In this document: positions 2,821-10,411 of the stretch, piece after piece
Numbering within the stretch: position 1 is the stretch's first letter
Layout: each line of letters starts with the position of its first letter
Virus record (IMG/VR): IMGVR_UViG_3300034375_000894
Location: 1-25,970 of that record
Reading direction: 5' to 3' (one strand)
Source: a virus
Length of the DNA stretch: 25,970 nt
The notes under the pieces: generated by a model
The model's database searches: none
Told to the model about the DNA's origin: nothing
Seen by the model: the letters and a program-made list of their open reading frames with translations, nothing else
Position numbers and translations under genes: made by a program

Positions 2821-2848
2821 AATATAGTTATTTATACCAGTTTGTCTA
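2821..2848 (-). promoter_or_regulatory. Predicted sigma-70-like promoter for the recombination operon
   Basis: On the minus strand TAGACA (2848-2843) is followed after 16 bases by TATATT (2826-2821). The same TAGACA hexamer at similar spacing occurs twice in the plus-strand promoter region at 7200-7283, which supports a shared promoter type. Predicted transcription would begin only about 8 bases before the exonuclease start codon. Confidence 0.45.
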
Positions 2849-2872
2849 CTATTATTTTTTATTATTTTTTAC

Positions 2873-2900
2873 TTGCAATATATAACCTTTATGGTATCAG
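2873..2900 (+). promoter_or_regulatory. Predicted promoter with embedded operator upstream of the HTH gene
   Basis: TTGCAA (2873-2878) and TATCAG (2895-2900, with an extended TGG before it) are spaced 16 bases apart. The spacer holds the 12-base core AACCTTTATGGT (2884-2895). The identical core lies between the -35 and -10 boxes of the leftward promoter at 6423-6452. A site inside the spacer is a classical repressor position, and the next gene encodes a Cro/CI-like protein, so autoregulation is likely. Confidence 0.5.
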
Positions 2901-2921: not shown

Positions 2922-3143
2922 ATGAAATTATCAGATTGGATCAAAGAGAATAAATTAAGTTATTCTCAAGCCGCCAATAAATTTGGCATCATTAATATAA
3001 ATCCTGCCACCAATGTTCAACGCTACGCCAAAGGTGAAAGGATACCACACCCTAAAGTAATGTTAAAAATATTTAAGGCAACAAATAAAAAAGTACAACC
3101 TAATGATTTCTATGAAGAATACTGGCAAAGAGAAGAAGTTTAA
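2922..3143 (+). CDS. Cro/CI-like helix-turn-helix regulator
   Basis: The 73-residue protein matches the lambda-repressor-like HTH layout. MKLSDWIKENKLSYSQAANK gives helices 1-2, FGI-x-NPATNVQRYAKGER (about 21-40) is the recognition region, and IPHPKVMLKIFKAT (41-54) gives the following helix, ending with VQPNDFYEEY as in many phage Cro-like proteins. GAAAGGAG lies just upstream of the ATG. It is the first gene of the rightward early operon and sits next to a divergent promoter pair. It probably controls the early switch by binding the AACCTTTATGGT-type sites. The target is inferred; the fold is well supported. Confidence 0.85.
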   Translation: MKLSDWIKENKLSYSQAANKFGIININPATNVQRYAKGERIPHPKVMLKIFKATNKKVQPNDFYEEYWQREEV

Positions 3144-4284: not shown

Positions 4285-4657
4285 ATGGACCTACGCATTT
4301 AGCAATGGGAAATATAACGATTGGCACAGACAACACCCAAATTTGGCTGGTATTGATATAGATTTTATTGAAGTTTGTCCCCACTGCCTAGAACCTTTGG
4401 CAGTTAAGGAGACTTGCTATGACAAGGGACAGAAATGGAAAGCTACAACGCTTACAAAGAGGGTCGCAGAGGCTCTTAGAGTACCCGGATTTTTAGTTTT
4501 CTATACTCCTTTGGGGGTTGATATGAAATTTAGGATCAAACGTATTACAGAGCCTGTGAGTGAGATATATGAGATGACTTCAGACCAATGGTTAGCTTAT
4601 TTATATGAGCTACATAAGGAACATAGGAGGTGTTGCAAAGATGCAACAGAAGTATGA
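4277..4657 (+). CDS. CxxC protein, possible PD-(D/E)XK-like nuclease
   Basis: The 126-residue protein begins MARWTYAFSNGKYNDWHRQH. The core reads GIDIDFIEVCPHCLEPLAVKE (about 25-45), followed by a conserved-looking YDKGQKWKATT and a hydrophobic strand FLVFYTP. The D-x-D-x-x-E-x-C-x-x-C-x-E-P-L-x-x-x-E arrangement resembles a small nuclease core with a zinc knuckle (Cys34, Cys37). I have seen similar proteins in phage genomes without a function. GAGG precedes the ATG, and the start overlaps the upstream gene by 8 bases. The nuclease idea is inference from the acidic pattern only. Confidence 0.7.
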   Translation: MARWTYAFSNGKYNDWHRQHPNLAGIDIDFIEVCPHCLEPLAVKETCYDKGQKWKATTLTKRVAEALRVPGFLVFYTPLGVDMKFRIKRITEPVSEIYEMTSDQWLAYLYELHKEHRRCCKDATEV

Positions 4658-5351
4658 GCCTCACATAAGGGTTAAGTTCTCGCTATTTGATAGTCCCCAG
4701 TTTAGAAACATTCCAAACAAGCACCGAGCTTACTGCTATTTGGTATTCATTTGTTTGCTAAAGTTCGCTAACTCTAAAACGCTGACTTGTTACCCACGCC
4801 AAGCCACCCTATCTAATATGACAGGTCTTAGTCGAAGCACTATATTTAGGACCACTGAATTGTTAGAGAGATCAAAAATTATTACAAAAAAACGCCAGAA
4901 GTCTACAACATTATATACCATTAATAAAGATCATGTTGTGTCTACAAGAAACTATGATGTGTCTACAGGACACATGGGTAGTGTCTACAGGACTAATATT
5001 AGTAGAACTATCATTAAACAAACTAACATTAATAACTATATAAAAGTTTTGGCAGAAGGTGGTAGCGATAAAGATACAATCTTAACAAAGTTAGCGTCTA
5101 AGTTTACAGTTCAAGAACTCAATGATGCTATCAAGGATAATGATAACCCTTATCTATGTAAACAGGCTTTACAAATAAAGGACCAAGAACAAGTGAAGTA
5201 TGTCTCAAAAGATGTTATAAATAAGGCGGTAGATGATGTCCGAAAAAAGACAAACTACTTTTATAAAGATAAGGTATACAAGAATAAGAGGGATCATGGC
5301 AGGATTTCAGCAACGAAAAGTTTTTTGTCAAAGTTTGACAAGAAGAAGTAA
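4641..5351 (+). CDS. Winged-helix replication-initiator-like protein
   Basis: I start it at ATG 4641 because AGGAGG (4625-4630) lies 10 bases upstream; a longer frame from 4605 has no such site. Residues about 20-95 form a winged helix of the HTH_36 type. CYPRQATLSNMTGLSRSTIF (50-69) is the HTH, RTTELLERSKIITKKRQKST is the recognition helix and wing, and LYTI is the final strand. Such proteins in phage early operons often initiate replication or regulate it. The middle, residues 85-118, is encoded by four GTCTACA repeats (see separate entry). The C-terminal third is lysine-rich and helical. The role as initiator is inferred; no helicase loader is seen next to it. Confidence 0.65.
   Translation: MQQKYEPHIRVKFSLFDSPQFRNIPNKHRAYCYLVFICLLKFANSKTLTCYPRQATLSNMTGLSRSTIFRTTELLERSKIITKKRQKSTTLYTINKDHVVSTRNYDVSTGHMGSVYRTNISRTIIKQTNINNYIKVLAEGGSDKDTILTKLASKFTVQELNDAIKDNDNPYLCKQALQIKDQEQVKYVSKDVINKAVDDVRKKTNYFYKDKVYKNKRDHGRISATKSFLSKFDKKK
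4899..4993 (+). repeat. Four GTCTACA direct repeats inside the winged-helix gene
   Basis: GTCTACA occurs at 4901, 4940, 4961 and 4983, giving intervals of 39, 21 and 22 bases. The last three extend to GTGTCTACARGA; copy 4959-4973 is also a dyad, GTGTC-TACAG-GACAC. The first three share one codon phase (coding for Ser-Thr), but the fourth is in another phase and codes for Val-Tyr-Arg. The conservation is therefore at the DNA level and not a protein repeat. Origins inside initiator genes are known from lambda O. Origin function here is inferred. Confidence 0.55.
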
Positions 5352-5718: not shown

Positions 5719-5989
5719 AGCTAGAAAAATTGGTATCCAAACTTTAATTGATAAGTTGCTACAAATATTTCAGTATCAAGAAATTGAAAATCCTAATCAA
5801 ATCTTATGGGTGAGGGAAAAAACAAAGTTTATTACTTACCTAGCAGGAAAGCTGACCGATCTTTATTCTGACAATAAACCGATAAAGCAGAATATAGATC
5901 AGAAAATTTCTGTTTCGTGGCAAGATAGTCCCGATCTGATTGACTTAGACGCAGAAGAAGTTGTCGATAAAACAAACCCCTCGCCATAA
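5456..5989 (+). CDS. terS: Terminase small subunit-like protein
   Basis: Residues about 40-140 have the helical pattern of phage terminase small subunits. IENMLMRGVTLSEILEDKKL is the DNA-recognition helix-turn-helix region, followed by SLQKFYAILKKDKELNHKIV, IGIQTLIDKLLQIFQY, and WVREKTKFITYLAGKLTDLY, equivalent to the R-x-x-x-R-K-W-x-x-x-K-x-x-P-x-x-Y region. It would select viral DNA and load the large subunit encoded 2.5 kb downstream. The N-terminus is uncertain. ATG 5456 has no Shine-Dalgarno and gives a Ser/Asn/Lys-rich lead; TTG 5519 or ATG 5591 could be the real start. The 263-base overlap with the preceding gene is unusually long. Confidence 0.65.
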   Translation: MTQESKHSQSSNNSETSQEKKLNNTITKKSNLELELQKEVDTIENMLMRGVTLSEILEDKKLSVSQMSLQKFYAILKKDKELNHKIVEARKIGIQTLIDKLLQIFQYQEIENPNQILWVREKTKFITYLAGKLTDLYSDNKPIKQNIDQKISVSWQDSPDLIDLDAEEVVDKTNPSP

Positions 5990-6004
5990 TTAAATGGCAA
6001 AGGG
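5978..6004. terminator. Hairpin at the convergent end of two operons
   Basis: GCCAT (5983-5987) pairs with ATGGC (5994-5998) around a 6-base loop, extended by CCCT (5978-5981) with AGGG (6001-6004) across a small bulge. It contains the stop of the terminase small subunit gene and sits 15 bases before the stop of the leftward gene at 6019. Read leftward it is followed by GGTTTGTTTT, so it is best as a terminator for the leftward cassette; rightward the tail is weaker. Confidence 0.6.
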
Positions 6005-6018
6005 TAGTTAGTTCTAAT

Positions 6019-6177
6019 TTACTCACTTGTAACTGTTTCATTTTCTTCAAGCTCTCTTATCTCTACTTCATAGCTGTCAAAAAATTCTTTCACAGGTTTA
6101 TCCCAATGTAAAAGATGACTAAGATGTAAGTTATCTTCATAAACATCTATTATAAATCTTCTTGAATATACTTTCAT
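6019..6177 (-). CDS. Hypothetical 52-residue protein, last gene of leftward cassette
   Basis: The frame from ATG 6177 to TAA 6019-6021 encodes MKVYSRRFIIDVYEDNLHLS and continues with HLLHWDKPVKEFFDSYEVEI and an acidic tail. The start follows the stop of the upstream gene by one base. It has alternating hydrophobic residues early (beta strands) and an acidic end. No family is recognised. It is bounded downstream by the 5978-6004 hairpin, which makes it the cassette's terminal gene. Confidence 0.6.
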   Translation of the reverse strand: MKVYSRRFIIDVYEDNLHLSHLLHWDKPVKEFFDSYEVEIRELEENETVTSE

Positions 6178-6178
6178 T

Positions 6179-6388
6179 TTATTCATGTTTAATAAACTCC
6201 ACAGTTATTTTGCATTTACCATGTTCTCTAAAATTAACTGTATCATCATAGGTGTCTATTAATTCGCATAATCTTTTTAAGATTATACCATCATCGCTAT
6301 GAACATGAGTTAATATTTGGTTCTTTTTTTCTTTGTTACCCTCGTACTTAGTACCAATGGTAACTATCTCGTAGCTATCTATATACAT
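6179..6388 (-). CDS. Hypothetical 69-residue protein downstream of the repeat array
   Basis: Begins MYIDSYEIVTIGTKYEGNKE; the pattern of alternating hydrophobics, a Lys-rich turn, the helix IILKRLCELIDTYDDT and a closing strand CKITVEFIKHE suggests a small alpha/beta fold. AAGG lies 9 bases before the ATG, and the leader contains AAACAACTA twice. It has its own predicted promoter at 6423-6452, with the repeat array immediately upstream. It is therefore the gene most likely controlled by that array. Function unknown. Confidence 0.7.
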   Translation of the reverse strand: MYIDSYEIVTIGTKYEGNKEKKNQILTHVHSDDGIILKRLCELIDTYDDTVNFREHGKCKITVEFIKHE

Positions 6389-6422
6389 AGTTGTTTACCT
6401 TTAGTTGTTTCCTTTCATAATT

Positions 6423-6452
6423 ATAATATAACCATAAAGGTTAATATGTCAA
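6423..6452 (-). promoter_or_regulatory. Strong predicted leftward promoter with operator core
   Basis: On the minus strand a consensus TTGACA (6452-6447) is followed by an 18-base spacer and TATTAT (6428-6423). The spacer contains AACCTTTATGGT (6442-6431), identical to the site in the promoter of the HTH regulator gene. It lies 36-65 bases upstream of the start codon at 6388, and the seven-copy repeat array begins 11 bases upstream of its -35 box. Confidence 0.6.
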
Positions 6453-6463
6453 TAGTATTTTTA

Positions 6464-6609
6464 GGTTGATTGTCTCAAAGTTTTAGTTGCTTATATCAAA
6501 CTTTAGGTTGCTTATATCAAAGTTGTGGTTGCTTATCTCGAATAAGTTTTGGTTGATTGTCTCAAAAATCATGGTTGATTGTCTCTAATTTTTGGTTGCT
6601 TATCTCAAA
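6464..6609 (+). repeat. Seven-copy iteron-like array, about 21-bp period
   Basis: A 16-base unit with consensus GGTTGMTTRTMTCAAA starts at 6464, 6485, 6506, 6527, 6551, 6573 and 6594, giving steps of 21, 21, 21, 24, 22 and 21 bases. That is close to two helical turns, so the copies fall on nearly the same DNA face. Two versions occur: GATTGTCTC (copies 1, 5, 6) and GCTTATMTC (copies 2, 3, 4, 7). Each unit is a loose dyad, TTGM-N5-TCAA. Stops occur in the reading frames checked on both strands, so it is non-coding. Candidate roles are initiator iterons or an activator array for the adjacent promoter. Confidence 0.85.
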
Positions 6610-6613
6610 AAAA

Positions 6614-6778
6614 TTATTTTATTTCTTGTCCTTGTTTATTAAATGATTTGTTTATATTTGGGACATATAAAAAACCATTGTCTTTTAGTTGCTTCAACAT
6701 ATTATTAAACCATATATTATTAATATTATGTTGATATGGTTTAAGATTTTTATAGTATTTTTGCGACCATTGGACCAT
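6614..6778 (-). CDS. Hypothetical 54-residue protein (YYKNLKPYQHNINN type)
   Basis: From ATG 6778 the frame encodes MVQWSQKYYKNLKPYQHNIN and continues with NIWFNNMLKQLKDNGFLYVP and NKSFNKQGQEIK, ending at TAA 6614-6616. The dense pattern of aromatic and Asn/Lys residues looks like a real conserved small helical protein. I have an impression of similar sequences in pelagiphage-like genomes but cannot confirm it. It follows the previous gene after one base, has no Shine-Dalgarno, and is the last gene before the repeat array. Confidence 0.6.
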   Translation of the reverse strand: MVQWSQKYYKNLKPYQHNINNIWFNNMLKQLKDNGFLYVPNINKSFNKQGQEIK

Positions 6779-6779
6779 A

Positions 6780-6881
6780 TTAAAACAATATAACGCCTAA
6801 TAAAAAACCAATTAAAAAACACTGGTATTCATGGCGGTAGTAAAGCTCATAAAATTTAAGATCCTTTAAAAATTTATTCAT
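6780..6881 (-). CDS. Tiny single-pass membrane protein, 33 residues
   Basis: The frame ATG 6881 to TAA 6780 encodes MNKFLKDLKFYELYYRHEYQ followed by CFLIGFLLGVILF. The last 13 residues are a hydrophobic membrane segment ending at the stop codon, giving an N-in, tail-anchored or holin-accessory-like layout. It overlaps the preceding gene's stop by 8 bases and is followed after one base by the next gene. The gene is very short, so the call rests on packing and the clean membrane segment. Confidence 0.5.
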   Translation of the reverse strand: MNKFLKDLKFYELYYRHEYQCFLIGFLLGVILF

Positions 6882-7020
6882 TTTTTAATTGCTTCAGGTA
6901 TTGTCTAAATAATTTCATGGCTTCTCTTTTAGTATAAAAATAATATACTTGCTTGATCCAGTAACCCTTAACGATGTCAGTTATTAAATAGCTACCATTT
7001 AATTGTTTTGTTACAATCAT
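6874..7020 (-). CDS. Hypothetical 48-residue protein
   Basis: From ATG 7020 it reads MIVTKQLNGSYLITDIVKGY and continues WIKQVYYFYTKREAMKLFRQYLK. The layout is two short beta strands, then an aromatic strand and a basic helix. That resembles the minimal domains in which a host-reading strand pair is followed by a KREA helix, as in AP2-like or Arc-type small phage proteins, but no assignment is possible. The start overlaps the previous gene in an ATGA arrangement, and GGGGG lies upstream. Confidence 0.65.
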   Translation of the reverse strand: MIVTKQLNGSYLITDIVKGYWIKQVYYFYTKREAMKLFRQYLKQLKNE

Positions 7021-7169
7021 TTATAAACCCCCAATAAATTAGATAAAATATAAGGTGTTATTTTTTTTGGTATTGGTAGTCTATATTTGAGCCAGTCGGT
7101 CCAGTATTGTTTGGTCCTATATATTTTTATAATTGGTACTTGATATAAATTGATATTGTCTTTTTTCAT
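7017..7169 (-). CDS. Hypothetical 50-residue protein, first gene of leftward cassette
   Basis: ATG 7169 is preceded by GAGAGG. The product MKKDNINLYQVPIIKIYRTK continues QYWTDWLKYRLPIPKKITPY and ends in a hydrophobic stretch. It is basic and aromatic-rich, with no recognised family. It is the first gene after the divergent promoter region and has AAACAACTA in its leader (7190-7182, read leftward). Confidence 0.6.
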   Translation of the reverse strand: MKKDNINLYQVPIIKIYRTKQYWTDWLKYRLPIPKKITPYILSNLLGVYK

Positions 7170-7199
7170 ATTACCTCTCATTAGTTGTTTTAATATACA

Positions 7200-7297
7200 T
7201 AGACATTATGGCTATATATACTATGGTCAATAATGTCGCACTTATCATATTTATAATAGACATTTTGGCTATATAGTTATAAAAGTTTAAATGTCAA
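7200..7297. promoter_or_regulatory. Divergent promoter region built from an 18-bp direct repeat
   Basis: AGACATTATGGCTATATA (7201-7218) recurs with one change at 7258-7275. Each copy begins a rightward promoter-like pair: TAGACA 7200-7205 with TATGGT 7222-7227, and TAGACA 7257-7262 with TATAAA 7278-7283. Leftward pairs overlap them: TTGACC 7230-7225 with TAATGT 7208-7203, and TTGACA 7297-7292 with TATATA 7275-7270. The arrangement would let one regulator control both the small-gene cassette and the 7331 gene. The repeat includes TTWTGGCTATA, related to the TTTATGGTTATA part of the 6423-6452 promoter. Confidence 0.55.
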
Positions 7298-7330
7298 TTA
7301 TGACAAAAACAACTAACAAAGAAGGTAAAC

Positions 7331-7924
7331 ATGACACCAATAAGAAAAGATGAGAAGGAACATTTATTGTCAGTGTGCAATAAGAAGTTTAACGCTAGAG
7401 AGCAATCTATATCTTATGAAATTCAAAGAGATGCTCAAGAGTTAAGCGACAAAAAAAAGAGTTCTTTTCAAAAATTAATTAAAGTTGATAAAAAAATGAC
7501 AGCTTTAATTGAAGCAGAAAAGAAATACAAAAAGCATATCCAAAATAAAGACGCTATAGAAAAAAAATTACTTGAGGATGTGTCCAAAAAAGCTAAAGAA
7601 GTTCAGGAACATTTAGAGAGGGTTAATAATGTTCGTAAATGGGGACGAGATTTTAGCGATTATAGGACCAATTATATAGATGATCCTGCAAGCGGTGATT
7701 TTATAGCTAATTTAAACAAATGTTGTTATGAGGAATCACTACAACATGTAAGTGATAACCATAAATTAAAAGCACATCTTGAGGACATGAGAGATCAAGT
7801 AATTATGACTATTAATAGCGGTCTTGCATTGGCTACAACTCAAGCAGAAGTAAAAAAAATATATAATGAAGCGGGTATAGATTACTATCTACCTCAAGCA
7901 TTATTACAGTTACCATCTAAATAA
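7331..7924 (+). CDS. Hypothetical coiled-coil early protein, 197 residues
   Basis: The protein begins MTPIRKDEKEHLLSVCNKKF. Residues about 20-100 are almost entirely charged helix (a probable coiled coil), followed by a compact region with WGRDFSDYRTNYIDD (about 104-118) and LNKCCYEES, then a helix and a short conserved-looking tail, KIYNEAGIDYYLPQALL. I recall similar proteins from marine phages, always without function. AAGG lies 5 bases before the ATG. It is a one-gene transcription unit with its own promoter region (7200-7297) and a strong terminator right after it, which points to a product needed at independent dosage. Confidence 0.75.
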   Translation: MTPIRKDEKEHLLSVCNKKFNAREQSISYEIQRDAQELSDKKKSSFQKLIKVDKKMTALIEAEKKYKKHIQNKDAIEKKLLEDVSKKAKEVQEHLERVNNVRKWGRDFSDYRTNYIDDPASGDFIANLNKCCYEESLQHVSDNHKLKAHLEDMRDQVIMTINSGLALATTQAEVKKIYNEAGIDYYLPQALLQLPSK

Positions 7925-7935
7925 TAATAAACATT

Positions 7936-7970
7936 AAACCCGGTTAGGTTAATTCTTAGCCGGGTTTTTT
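7936..7970 (+). terminator. Intrinsic terminator after the 7331 gene
   Basis: AAACCCGGTTAG (7936-7947) pairs with CTTAGCCGGGTTT (from 7955), including one G-U pair, and is followed directly by a run of T ending at 7970. A GC-rich stem plus U-tract is the textbook rho-independent form. It isolates the early gene from the late operon downstream. Confidence 0.85.
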
Positions 7971-8268
7971 ATTGGTCCTATACTTCCATTTTAAACACTC
8001 AACCACGCCACGCAATCACTCGTATATATAAGCGGATCAAGGTATTATATATAATACATGAGCCAAAAAGTCGTAATGATAATAAAAAGTTACCGGTAAC
8101 TATTACATTTTGCCAGATGTTTTTATAGATTTTGTAAATTATAAAAGCCATACACCCCAAAACCAACCCGCCAAATATTATATATATATACATGGGACTC
8201 GAGGACACCCTTACACACAGCTTCATCTTCATCTTGCCAGACCAATAATAATAAACTAGATATGGTAT
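7971..8268. promoter_or_regulatory. Intergenic control region before the late operon
   Basis: These 298 bases separate the terminator from the late operon and hold no confident gene. They contain two perfect palindromes: the 16-base GTATTATATATAATAC (8042-8057) and the 12-base GTTACCGGTAAC (8089-8100). An alternating TA tract and a locally GC-richer segment (about 8191-8245) with CTCGAG follow. The late promoter must lie here or be read from upstream; I see only weak sigma-70-like pairs, such as TTGCCA 8235-8240. The palindromes are candidate sites for a late activator. Confidence 0.5.
7999..8193 (-). CDS. Doubtful small membrane protein
   Basis: A minus-strand frame from ATG 8193 encodes 64 residues starting MYIYIIFGGLVLGCMAFIIY, then KIYKNIWQ and a second moderately hydrophobic stretch. 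It would make one or two membrane segments with a basic C-terminus, as expected for a small phage membrane protein. Against it: no Shine-Dalgarno, no operon partner, and both perfect palindromes of the control region fall inside the frame. AT-rich DNA easily produces such hydrophobic frames. Listed as a possibility only. Confidence 0.25.
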   Translation of the reverse strand: MYIYIIFGGLVLGCMAFIIYKIYKNIWQNVIVTGNFLLSLRLFGSCIIYNTLIRLYIRVIAWRG

Positions 8269-8460
8269 ATGAACTATTTTTCATCAGAAGATATGGATTG
8301 CGTTTGCTACATTGAAGAAAAAACAAACAATGTAGTTATTAAATTCTTTAATATACCAGATCATTCTTCTGCTGAGTTATTTACAATGTTTGCTATGAAC
8401 AGATTAGGTTTTGATTATCACCCTCTAAATGAGAATATGCCTAGCAAATCAGTTCACTAA
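8269..8460 (+). CDS. Small conserved protein before terminase large subunit
   Basis: The 63-residue product MNYFSSEDMDCVCYIEEKTN has regular strands (VVIKFFNI), then a helix with AELFTMFAMNRLGFDYHPL and a basic end KSVH. The F-x-x-x-x-M-x-x-L-G-F-D-Y-H segment looks conserved; I recall similar small proteins just ahead of terminase in marine podoviruses. It ends 3 bases before the terminase start, so it probably opens the late operon and couples terminase translation. No Shine-Dalgarno is clear for its own start. Function unknown. Confidence 0.65.
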   Translation: MNYFSSEDMDCVCYIEEKTNNVVIKFFNIPDHSSAELFTMFAMNRLGFDYHPLNENMPSKSVH

Positions 8461-8463
8461 GTT

Positions 8464-9735
8464 ATGGATATTAAAATACCTTATACACCTCGTAAGCATC
8501 AAGCCTACATTCATAAACAAATAGATAAACACAGATGGAATGTATTAGTTTGTCATAGAAGATTTGGCAAAACTGTGGCAGTTCTAAATCATTTGATTAG
8601 ATCAGCTTTAACTTCTAAGAACAAGAACCCTAGGTATGCCTATATATCACCTACCTTCAAACAATCAAAAGCTATTGCTTGGGATTATATAAAACAGTTC
8701 ACCGCCAAAATACCCCACACTAAATTCAACGAAACAGAACTGAGAGTTGATTTACCAAATGGCTCTCGTATCACCTTGCTAGGCTCAGAAAACTCAGATG
8801 GCTTGAGGGGTATATACCTTGATGGTTGTGTGATTGACGAGTATGCAAATGTAAATGAAAAACTATTTCCTGAGATTATCAGACCAGCACTATCCGACAG
8901 AAAGGGGTACTGTGTTTTTATTGGGACTCCGCAAGGAATGAATAATAATTTTTATGATTTATACCAACATGCACAAGGTGCGGATGATTGGTTTCACTAT
9001 AAAGCTAAAGCTAGCGATACGAAAATTGTTGACCAAGAGGAACTAGACAAAGCGAAAGAGGTAATGGGTGAGAAGAAATACCTGCAAGAGTTTGAGTGTG
9101 ATTGGATCGCAAACATCGAAGGTGCTATCTATGGTGATGAGATTGCAAAACTAGATAACAAACGACAGATAACTAGAGTGCCATACGATCCTAGTTTACC
9201 AGTTTCGACAAGTTGGGATTTGGGTGTTTCAGATCATAGTTCAATTATATTCTTTCAACAACTAGGTAGAGCAATCAATATTATCGACTACCATGAAGAA
9301 AGAGGTCAAGGATTACCGCACTATATTCAGATGATAAAGGAAAAGGATTATATCTACAAAGATCACTTTGCGCCACACGACATCGAAGTTACAGATTTTA
9401 GTAATGGCAAGACCCGGAGAGAGGTCGCCTATCAATTAGGAATTAGGTTTAAAGTCGTGCCAAAAATTCCACTCGAAGATGGCATCCACGCAACGACAAT
9501 GATCTTGCCTAGATGTTGGATTGATGTAGACCATTGCAAAAACTTAATAGATGCGTTAAGACATTACCACAGGAAGTATATTGACAAAAACAGAATGTTT
9601 AGGTCAAAGCCTGTACACGATTGGAGTTCACACGCTTGCGATGCCATGAGGTATCTAGCTGTTGGATTACAAGAAATAAATGATAGACAAATTGCTCCAC
9701 AAAGTGTAGCAGATAATGAATACAGGATTATATAA
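8464..9735 (+). CDS. terL: Terminase large subunit
   Basis: This 423-residue DNA-packaging motor subunit has both domains. The ATPase shows the Walker A-like CHRRFGKT (30-37), the Walker B CVIDEYA with catalytic Asp125-Glu126, and the coupling motif FIGTPQG (152-158). The RNase H-like nuclease shows SWDLGVSDHSS (Asp252, Asp257), an IIDYHEE strand with Asp275, and the final HDWSSHACDAMRYLA with Asp393. It cleaves and translocates viral DNA into the prohead through the portal. Length is on the short side for the family but all motifs are present. No Shine-Dalgarno; probably coupled to the 8269 gene. Confidence 0.95.
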   Translation: MDIKIPYTPRKHQAYIHKQIDKHRWNVLVCHRRFGKTVAVLNHLIRSALTSKNKNPRYAYISPTFKQSKAIAWDYIKQFTAKIPHTKFNETELRVDLPNGSRITLLGSENSDGLRGIYLDGCVIDEYANVNEKLFPEIIRPALSDRKGYCVFIGTPQGMNNNFYDLYQHAQGADDWFHYKAKASDTKIVDQEELDKAKEVMGEKKYLQEFECDWIANIEGAIYGDEIAKLDNKRQITRVPYDPSLPVSTSWDLGVSDHSSIIFFQQLGRAINIIDYHEERGQGLPHYIQMIKEKDYIYKDHFAPHDIEVTDFSNGKTRREVAYQLGIRFKVVPKIPLEDGIHATTMILPRCWIDVDHCKNLIDALRHYHRKYIDKNRMFRSKPVHDWSSHACDAMRYLAVGLQEINDRQIAPQSVADNEYRII

Positions 9736-10219: not shown

Positions 10220-10411
10220 ATGTTAGAAAAAATTAAAAAAGTATTTACAAGAAAGAAACCAGTAGTAAAAAAAACTAAAGAAGTTAAAGAAGAGGTAAAA
10301 GAAAAAATTAAAATTGAAGAACCTTTAGTTTTGAAAAAAAAAGATATTTCTGAAAAAGCTACAAAAGAAACTAAGCAAGAAACTAAATCTTCATTAACAT
10401 TTGGAGTATAA
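10220..10411 (+). CDS. Lys/Glu-rich 63-residue protein of the head module
   Basis: The protein begins MLEKIKKVFTRKKPVVKKTK and continues as a low-complexity Lys/Glu chain ending SSLTFGV. The first 10 residues could form a small amphipathic helix; the rest is probably disordered. It starts one base after the previous stop, and its last codons (GGAGTATAA) again act as ribosome site for the next gene. Repetitive composition means weak evidence from sequence pattern, but the operon spacing supports expression. Confidence 0.55.
   Translation: MLEKIKKVFTRKKPVVKKTKEVKEEVKEKIKIEEPLVLKKKDISEKATKETKQETKSSLTFGV

Follow-up and report, generated by a model that had tools for sequence, protein, structure and literature searches.

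Paired imperfect dyads over divergent promoters as putative operators of a small Xre/Cro-like regulator in a marine SAR11-type phage

The locus and its repeated dyad

The window, by which is meant the whole stretch of DNA analysed here, is a 25,970-base record of an uncultured virus with a G+C content of 32%. By DNA it is closest to HTVC010P-type pelagiphages such as Lederberg, HTVC034P, HTVC010P and Skadi, and the phage is a marine, SAR11-type one. Phages of this type rank among the most abundant in the sea. Encoded in the window are a terminase large subunit (8464-9735), a head-tail adaptor, and major head and tail proteins, together with an exonuclease/replication-initiation block. A search of the window for RNA elements matched no Rfam family.

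The repeat region is flanked by a leftward run of small ORFs (6019-7181) and a rightward gene for a 197-aa protein (7331-7924, plus strand). The ORFs of the cassette (6019-6186, 6179-6388, 6614-6778, 6874-7020 and 7017-7181, all on the minus strand) gave no database matches. The 197-aa product, which is mostly alpha-helical, matched no family and no helix-turn-helix (HTH) domain; its model is helical with a mean pLDDT of 73.5, and the best viral structure match has E=0.006 with an rmsd of 51. Many of its charged residues are invariant. A terminator-like stem of 13 pairs with a T-run (7936-7967, plus strand) ends the 7331 unit ahead of the operon for the terminase large subunit. A leader element, ACAACTAA, is found just upstream of ribosome-binding sites on both strands (6388-6415, 7181-7195 and 7306-7325) and recurs in relatives too.

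An 18-bp direct repeat reported in a first-pass annotation of this DNA is present as described, with AGACATTATGGCTATATA at 7201-7218 and AGACATTTTGGCTATATA at 7258-7275 lying 57 bp apart and differing by one change. The repeated stretch is actually 20 bp long, still with one change (7199-7218 and 7256-7275), and when up to three mismatches are allowed these two are the sole copies in the window, with 0.04 matches expected from shuffled sequence. Each copy is an imperfect dyad composed of two 8-bp halves and a variable 3-bp centre, TATAGACA-NNN-TGGYTATA. The first, designated O1 (7198-7216, plus strand), reads CATAGACA-TTA-TGGCTATA, and the second, O2 (7255-7273, plus strand), reads AATAGACA-TTT-TGGCTATA; both have 6/8 dyad pairs. 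As dyads of this strength are not in themselves rare, with 230 such 19-mers in the window, it is the pattern of conservation that carries the argument.

The pair is kept in 11 IMG/VR contigs, each with a homologue of gene 7331 on its right, from which nine distinct and well aligned gap versions were obtained. Across these versions, the half-sites of O1 are invariant at 7/8 and 7/8 columns and its centre at 1/3, and those of O2 at 7/8 and 6/8 with 2/3 for the centre; the linker between the copies is invariant at 3/14 columns and the bases to the right of O1 at 2/8. Inverted half-sites are thus conserved around a variable centre in both copies, and this combination, in an imperfect dyad, argues for an operator rather than a promoter alone. 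The pattern is the footprint that would be expected for a dimeric DNA-binding protein, and the copies are treated here as putative operators. Copy-to-copy spacing ranges from 56 to 58 bp, with one version at 66, so that no fixed helical phase is apparent.

The same alignment bears on the idea that module exchange left the repeats behind as a junction block beside gene 7331, kept by recombination and not by regulation. The first gene to the left of the pair does vary among relatives, several unrelated small ORFs being found in this position, and the gap and gene 7331 are constant, as such exchange would have it. Within this single block, however, conservation is concentrated in the half-sites and promoter boxes, the centres and linker having diverged, and an origin of this kind appears highly improbable.

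Candidate promoters over the two copies

Counting of promoter consensus matches was dropped as evidence because sigma-70-like matches at 5900-8300 occur at chance level in this A+T-rich DNA (17 observed versus 17.0 +/- 4.7 in shuffles), and conservation was used instead. At copy 2, conservation supports candidate promoters on both strands. The leftward promoter PL2 (7270-7297, minus strand) has TTGACA at 7297-7292, a 16-bp spacer, and TATATA at 7275-7270, and its -10 falls on the right half of O2; the TTGACA is found in 9/9 gap versions, separated by 16 or 18 bases from a -10 of the TATATA or TATAAC type. The rightward promoter PR2 (7257-7283, plus strand) has TAGACA at 7257-7262, a 15-bp spacer, and TATAAA at 7278-7283. 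Its -35 is the left half of O2 and is also kept in 9/9 versions, with a spacer of 15 or 17 and a -10 of TATAAA or TATAAC. The layout of PR2 (TAGACA-NNN-TGG, then TATAAA/TATATT) is found as well at the promoter in the gap beside the Xre-like gene described below.

The first-pass annotation had proposed interlocked divergent promoters at each copy, in effect two equal pairs. Conservation bears this out at copy 2, in all nine versions, and not at copy 1. The leftward TTGACC called there (7230-7225) lacks a conserved -10; two relatives have TTAACC in its place and one has lost it. The rightward promoter called there has an inconsistent -10 that is not conserved across the gap versions. A better fit to copy 1 than TTGACC is GCGACA, located 9 bp beyond it, which gives a weaker candidate leftward promoter over O1, PL1 (7213-7239, minus strand; GCGACA at 7239-7234, a 15-base spacer, and TATATA at 7218-7213). 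GCGACA is the best call in 8/9 gap versions with a variable -10, and the GGTCAATAATGTCGCA block around PL1 is invariant at 10/16 columns.

Conserved blocks lie beside both operators, GGTCAATAATGTCGCA at 7225-7240 and AATGTCAATWATGACA at 7289-7305, and both contain GTCAATWATG. The AATGTCAATWATGACA block is invariant at 15/17 columns, beyond what its -35 requires. They may provide a second binding site or act as part of the start region.

The overlap of promoters had also been interpreted as a switch in which polymerases on the two strands exclude each other, setting the small-gene cassette against gene 7331. In its fullest form, this explanation holds that two tandem interlocked divergent pairs arose by duplication and are switched by polymerase exclusion, with no dedicated repressor needed. 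The -35 and -10 boxes at copy 2 do overlap in 9/9 versions, and exclusion between promoters placed back to back in this way would be physically reasonable. As the primary design it does not agree with what selection best preserves, namely the dyad half-sites along with the TTGACA and TAGACA hexamers. Neither TGGYTATA nor the dyad is a promoter element, yet both are as well conserved as the hexamers; copy 1 is without a conserved rightward -10 or a conserved TTGACC; and TAGACA-NNN-TGG is present in the Xre gap too, at its leftward promoter. Polymerase exclusion without a repressor is therefore considered improbable. Because the element is conserved as a dyad and is present at the Xre control region, a repressor dimer occluding both promoters is the likelier switch, and such a dimer could turn both sides off together instead of setting one against the other.

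A promoter for a phage RNA polymerase was also considered and is disfavoured, as the sites fit sigma-70 spacing and Skadi relies on the host enzyme. Dependence on host RNA polymerase extends, according to the authors of the Skadi study, to other HTVC010P-type phages, which are reported to be without an RNA polymerase of their own (PMC10504331).

Recurrence of the site in the Xre gap and beyond

Motif counts were made over the window and 80 loci fetched with the window's own 73-aa Xre-like protein, a partly redundant set. In these 81 Xre-bearing sequences, TAGACA-NNN-TGG has 90 matches in 52 distinct contexts, compared with means of 3.9 matches (maximum 50) and 2.4 contexts (maximum 20) for permuted-pattern controls. 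All but four of the matches (86/90) are intergenic, with 12 accounted for by the operator pair and 74 located in the gap that precedes the Xre gene, where they point toward the recombination genes. The site is thus found predominantly at the control region of the putative regulator itself (74/90 matches), the window's own site being a poor dyad. The best leftward promoter uses this TAGACA as its -35 in 13 of the 17 Xre gaps taken as representatives.

In the window, the site between the Xre gene and the recombination genes (2832-2850, minus strand; AGTAGACA-AAC-TGGTATAA) has 2/8 dyad pairs, and its right half is displaced by one base; its TAGACA (2848-2843) serves as the -35 for a leftward promoter whose TATATT lies at 2826-2821. 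A second site, TATAACCT-TTA-TGGTATCA (2881-2899, plus strand; 4/8 dyad pairs), is directly upstream of the Xre-like gene, and its AACCTTTATGGTAT block is kept in the Xre gaps of close relatives. A different arrangement occurs in L040, L042, L066 and L068, where the Xre-gap promoter has TTGACA further upstream, a -10 of TATAAT or TATAGT, and a spacer that carries TAACCGATATGG or WWACCAATATGG. Once freed from the -35 role in this way, the left half becomes ACC(A/G), the dyad partner of TGG.

The architecture of these variant Xre gaps is matched within the window by a leftward promoter at 6423-6452 (minus strand; TTGACA from 6452, a spacer of 16 or 18, and TATATT/TATTAT). An operator-like element, OL (6427-6445, minus strand; ATTAACCT-TTA-TGGTTATA, 5/8 dyad pairs), lies in its spacer, and the string TTWTGGYTATA that the promoter had been said to share with the repeat is indeed found inside it, at 6427-6437 on the minus strand. 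Promoter and site are also present in L019, L042, L003 and L102. With a profile made from only the two copies, the 6427 site reaches 7.9 bits, compared with a mean best score of 12.0 in random sequence, and a scan of the window with this profile was set aside, neither the 6427 site nor the Xre-gap sites being above noise. Because the profile misses the 6427 site, its connection to the copies depends on comparative evidence, the best link being the architecture (TTGACA-TATTAACCTTTATGGT-TATATT) common to this promoter and the Xre gaps of L040, L042, L066 and L068. The suggestion that the operator family includes the 6423-6452 promoter is thus supported by comparison with relatives and not from the window alone.

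Directly upstream of this promoter, at 6456-6611, are six to seven imperfect tandem units of about 21 bp (GGTTGATTGTCTCAAA / GTTGCTTATATCAAA). A different array, with units of about 22 bp (ACCGATTGTCACTTTT), occupies the equivalent spot before the same promoter in L102, and the two have in common only a GACAATC core in opposite orientation. Iterons or an activator array are possible explanations.

TAGACA-NNN-TGG is absent from the Xre gap of cultured isolates with 37-41% identical Xre proteins, and a nucleotide search for the pair-bearing gap in cultured phages gave chance-like matches only. A search across IMG/VR with the site alone returned matches that are mostly chance and in coding DNA. 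Apart from the pair-bearing contigs, the non-coding matches include L124, L174 and L145, each with the site ahead of a small gene. The first two of these encode 42-44% identical Xre proteins and share several neighbour genes, with the exact site upstream of the small gene. The site or a TCTAGACA-TWT-TGGCTAGA variant is carried by 11 of 14 loci with an L124-type Xre protein, 2.7-2.8 kb from the Xre gene, and random sequence yields 0-2 matches at the stringency of this search. The variant (L184-L195) represents a change of both half-sites in step. A separate sequence, TTATGGCTATAATTAGGCAT, is common to two otherwise different phages, occurring at 9838 in L055 and at 10269 in Skadi-2 (L007), where it lies at a cassette promoter; this sharing suggests a second conserved promoter or operator element.

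A candidate regulator and the proposed circuit

The protein proposed to bind these operators is the 73-aa Xre/Cro-like helix-turn-helix protein encoded at 2922-3143 (plus strand). Its HTH_3 match is under the curated cut-off (18.5 bits versus 23, E=0.0021). The AlphaFold2 model has five helices and a pLDDT of 92.7, with YdaS, C proteins, P2 C and P22 c2 as the nearest folds in the PDB by Foldseek (probability <=0.98, E above 0.3); in this comparison no solved fold reached E<=0.001, and a sequence profile of the protein gave nothing significant against the PDB. Nearly all of the leading fold matches are of the Xre, C-protein, P22 c2 or YdaS type. Four residues in what is presumed to be the recognition helix (N27, P28, T30 and R34) are invariant all the way from the window to the isolates. 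From the position of the site and its co-occurrence with the protein, we infer that the 73-aa product may be the operator binder, and the placement of the site over -10 and -35 boxes favours repression as its putative mode of action.

Other binders have been considered, namely the HTH, replication-initiation-like product of 4605-5351, the protein encoded by gene 7331 through autoregulation, and a regulator supplied by the host. The first of these is an HTH protein, and every operator pair is accompanied by a 7331 homologue. Nevertheless, 7331 has no HTH match, the site is found at the Xre gap even in phages without 7331, and the distant phages that bear the site share the Xre protein and gap layout, so that a binder other than the Xre-like protein seems unlikely, if somewhat less so than polymerase exclusion.

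Taken with these comparisons, the repeat probably provides the 73-aa Xre/Cro-like protein of the phage itself with two imperfect dyad operators, which would jointly govern the leftward cassette and gene 7331. The regulator would bind O1 and O2 through TATAGACA-NNN-TGGYTATA, and probably also the gap before its own gene, at the -35 region of the recombination-gene promoter (TAGACA-NNN-TGG), and the 6423-6452 promoter. As O2 spans overlapping divergent promoters, covering the -10 of the cassette promoter and the -35 of the 7331 promoter, a dimer bound there would be expected to shut both. O1, which lies 57 bp further left, within the leader of the leftward transcript and over the weaker candidate leftward promoter, may contribute cooperative binding, a roadblock, or control of PL1. 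Both repression and its timing are predictions of this scheme, with the early cassette presumably turned off as the level of regulator rises, in the manner of lambda Cro.

The kind of switch is most likely one familiar from phages and plasmids, and what would be new is to have such a circuit mapped in so abundant a group of phages. The lambda OL/OR regions, bound by Cro and CI, contain imperfect dyad operators of 17-19 bp. Like them, the proposed system has a small HTH regulator, imperfect dyads over promoter boxes, multiple operators per control region, and operators that lie in the gap next to the regulator gene as well as at an early promoter some distance away. Unlike lambda, it has its paired gap away from the regulator gene, and no CI-like partner repressor or integrase was recognised among the proteins scanned in this 26-kb fragment; the resemblance of the 73-aa regulator to Cro and CI is in fold only. 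The C proteins of restriction-modification systems are small Xre dimers that act on paired operators. Four of them (C.BclI, C.AhdI, C.Csp231I and C.Esp1396I) rank among the solved structures closest to the model of the regulator, with Foldseek E above 0.3, although no restriction-modification pair was recognised at the locus. In the Pr/Pc region of pLS20, a dedicated regulator, Rco, acts at overlapping divergent promoters and a second, distant operator, and looping between operators has been demonstrated (PMC4207663). The phage gap resembles this region in its overlapping divergent promoters, second operator at a distance, and putative dedicated regulator, although pLS20 is a plasmid conjugation system.

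Among the cultured relatives, Lederberg, Skadi, HTVC010P and HTVC034P follow the same plan, with an Xre-like gene divergent from the recombination genes and a leftward cassette of small genes before TerL, and TGGCTATA half-sites are found at the cassette promoters of Lederberg and Skadi. The operator pair and gene 7331 are both absent from the four examined. Likewise, in 18 Xre phages spanning TerS to TerL, the pair is present in 5/5 with gene 7331 and 0/13 without it; since the pair travels with gene 7331, it is an accessory part of the regulon. HTVC010P has been described as exclusively lytic (PMC8163748). For Skadi, only four sigma-70 promoters, two Pribnow boxes, and two uncharacterised transcriptional regulators have been reported (PMC10504331), and no mapped operator for an HTVC010P-type phage was found in the literature searched. 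Gene control in this group is essentially unmapped, and a named candidate regulator and operator make it directly testable. The operator also provides a sequence handle for co-regulated small genes, which are likely candidates for early host takeover.

A broader and more tentative proposal, which we regard as possible without favouring it, is that HTVC010P-type and more distant phages share one operator code, TATAGACA-NNN-TGGYTATA with its close variants, that one family of tiny Xre-like proteins reads it, and that it constitutes a portable control port. If so, the port would be the fixed double-operator divergent promoter beside gene 7331, where different small leftward genes are slotted in and so come under phage control. 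Further along the window, upstream of the terminase large-subunit operon, the sequence TATATATATACATGGGACTCGAGGACACCCTTACA at 8180-8230 is near-identical in HTVC010P and HTVC034P and partly retained in Lederberg and Skadi, and is a candidate packaging site or late leader.
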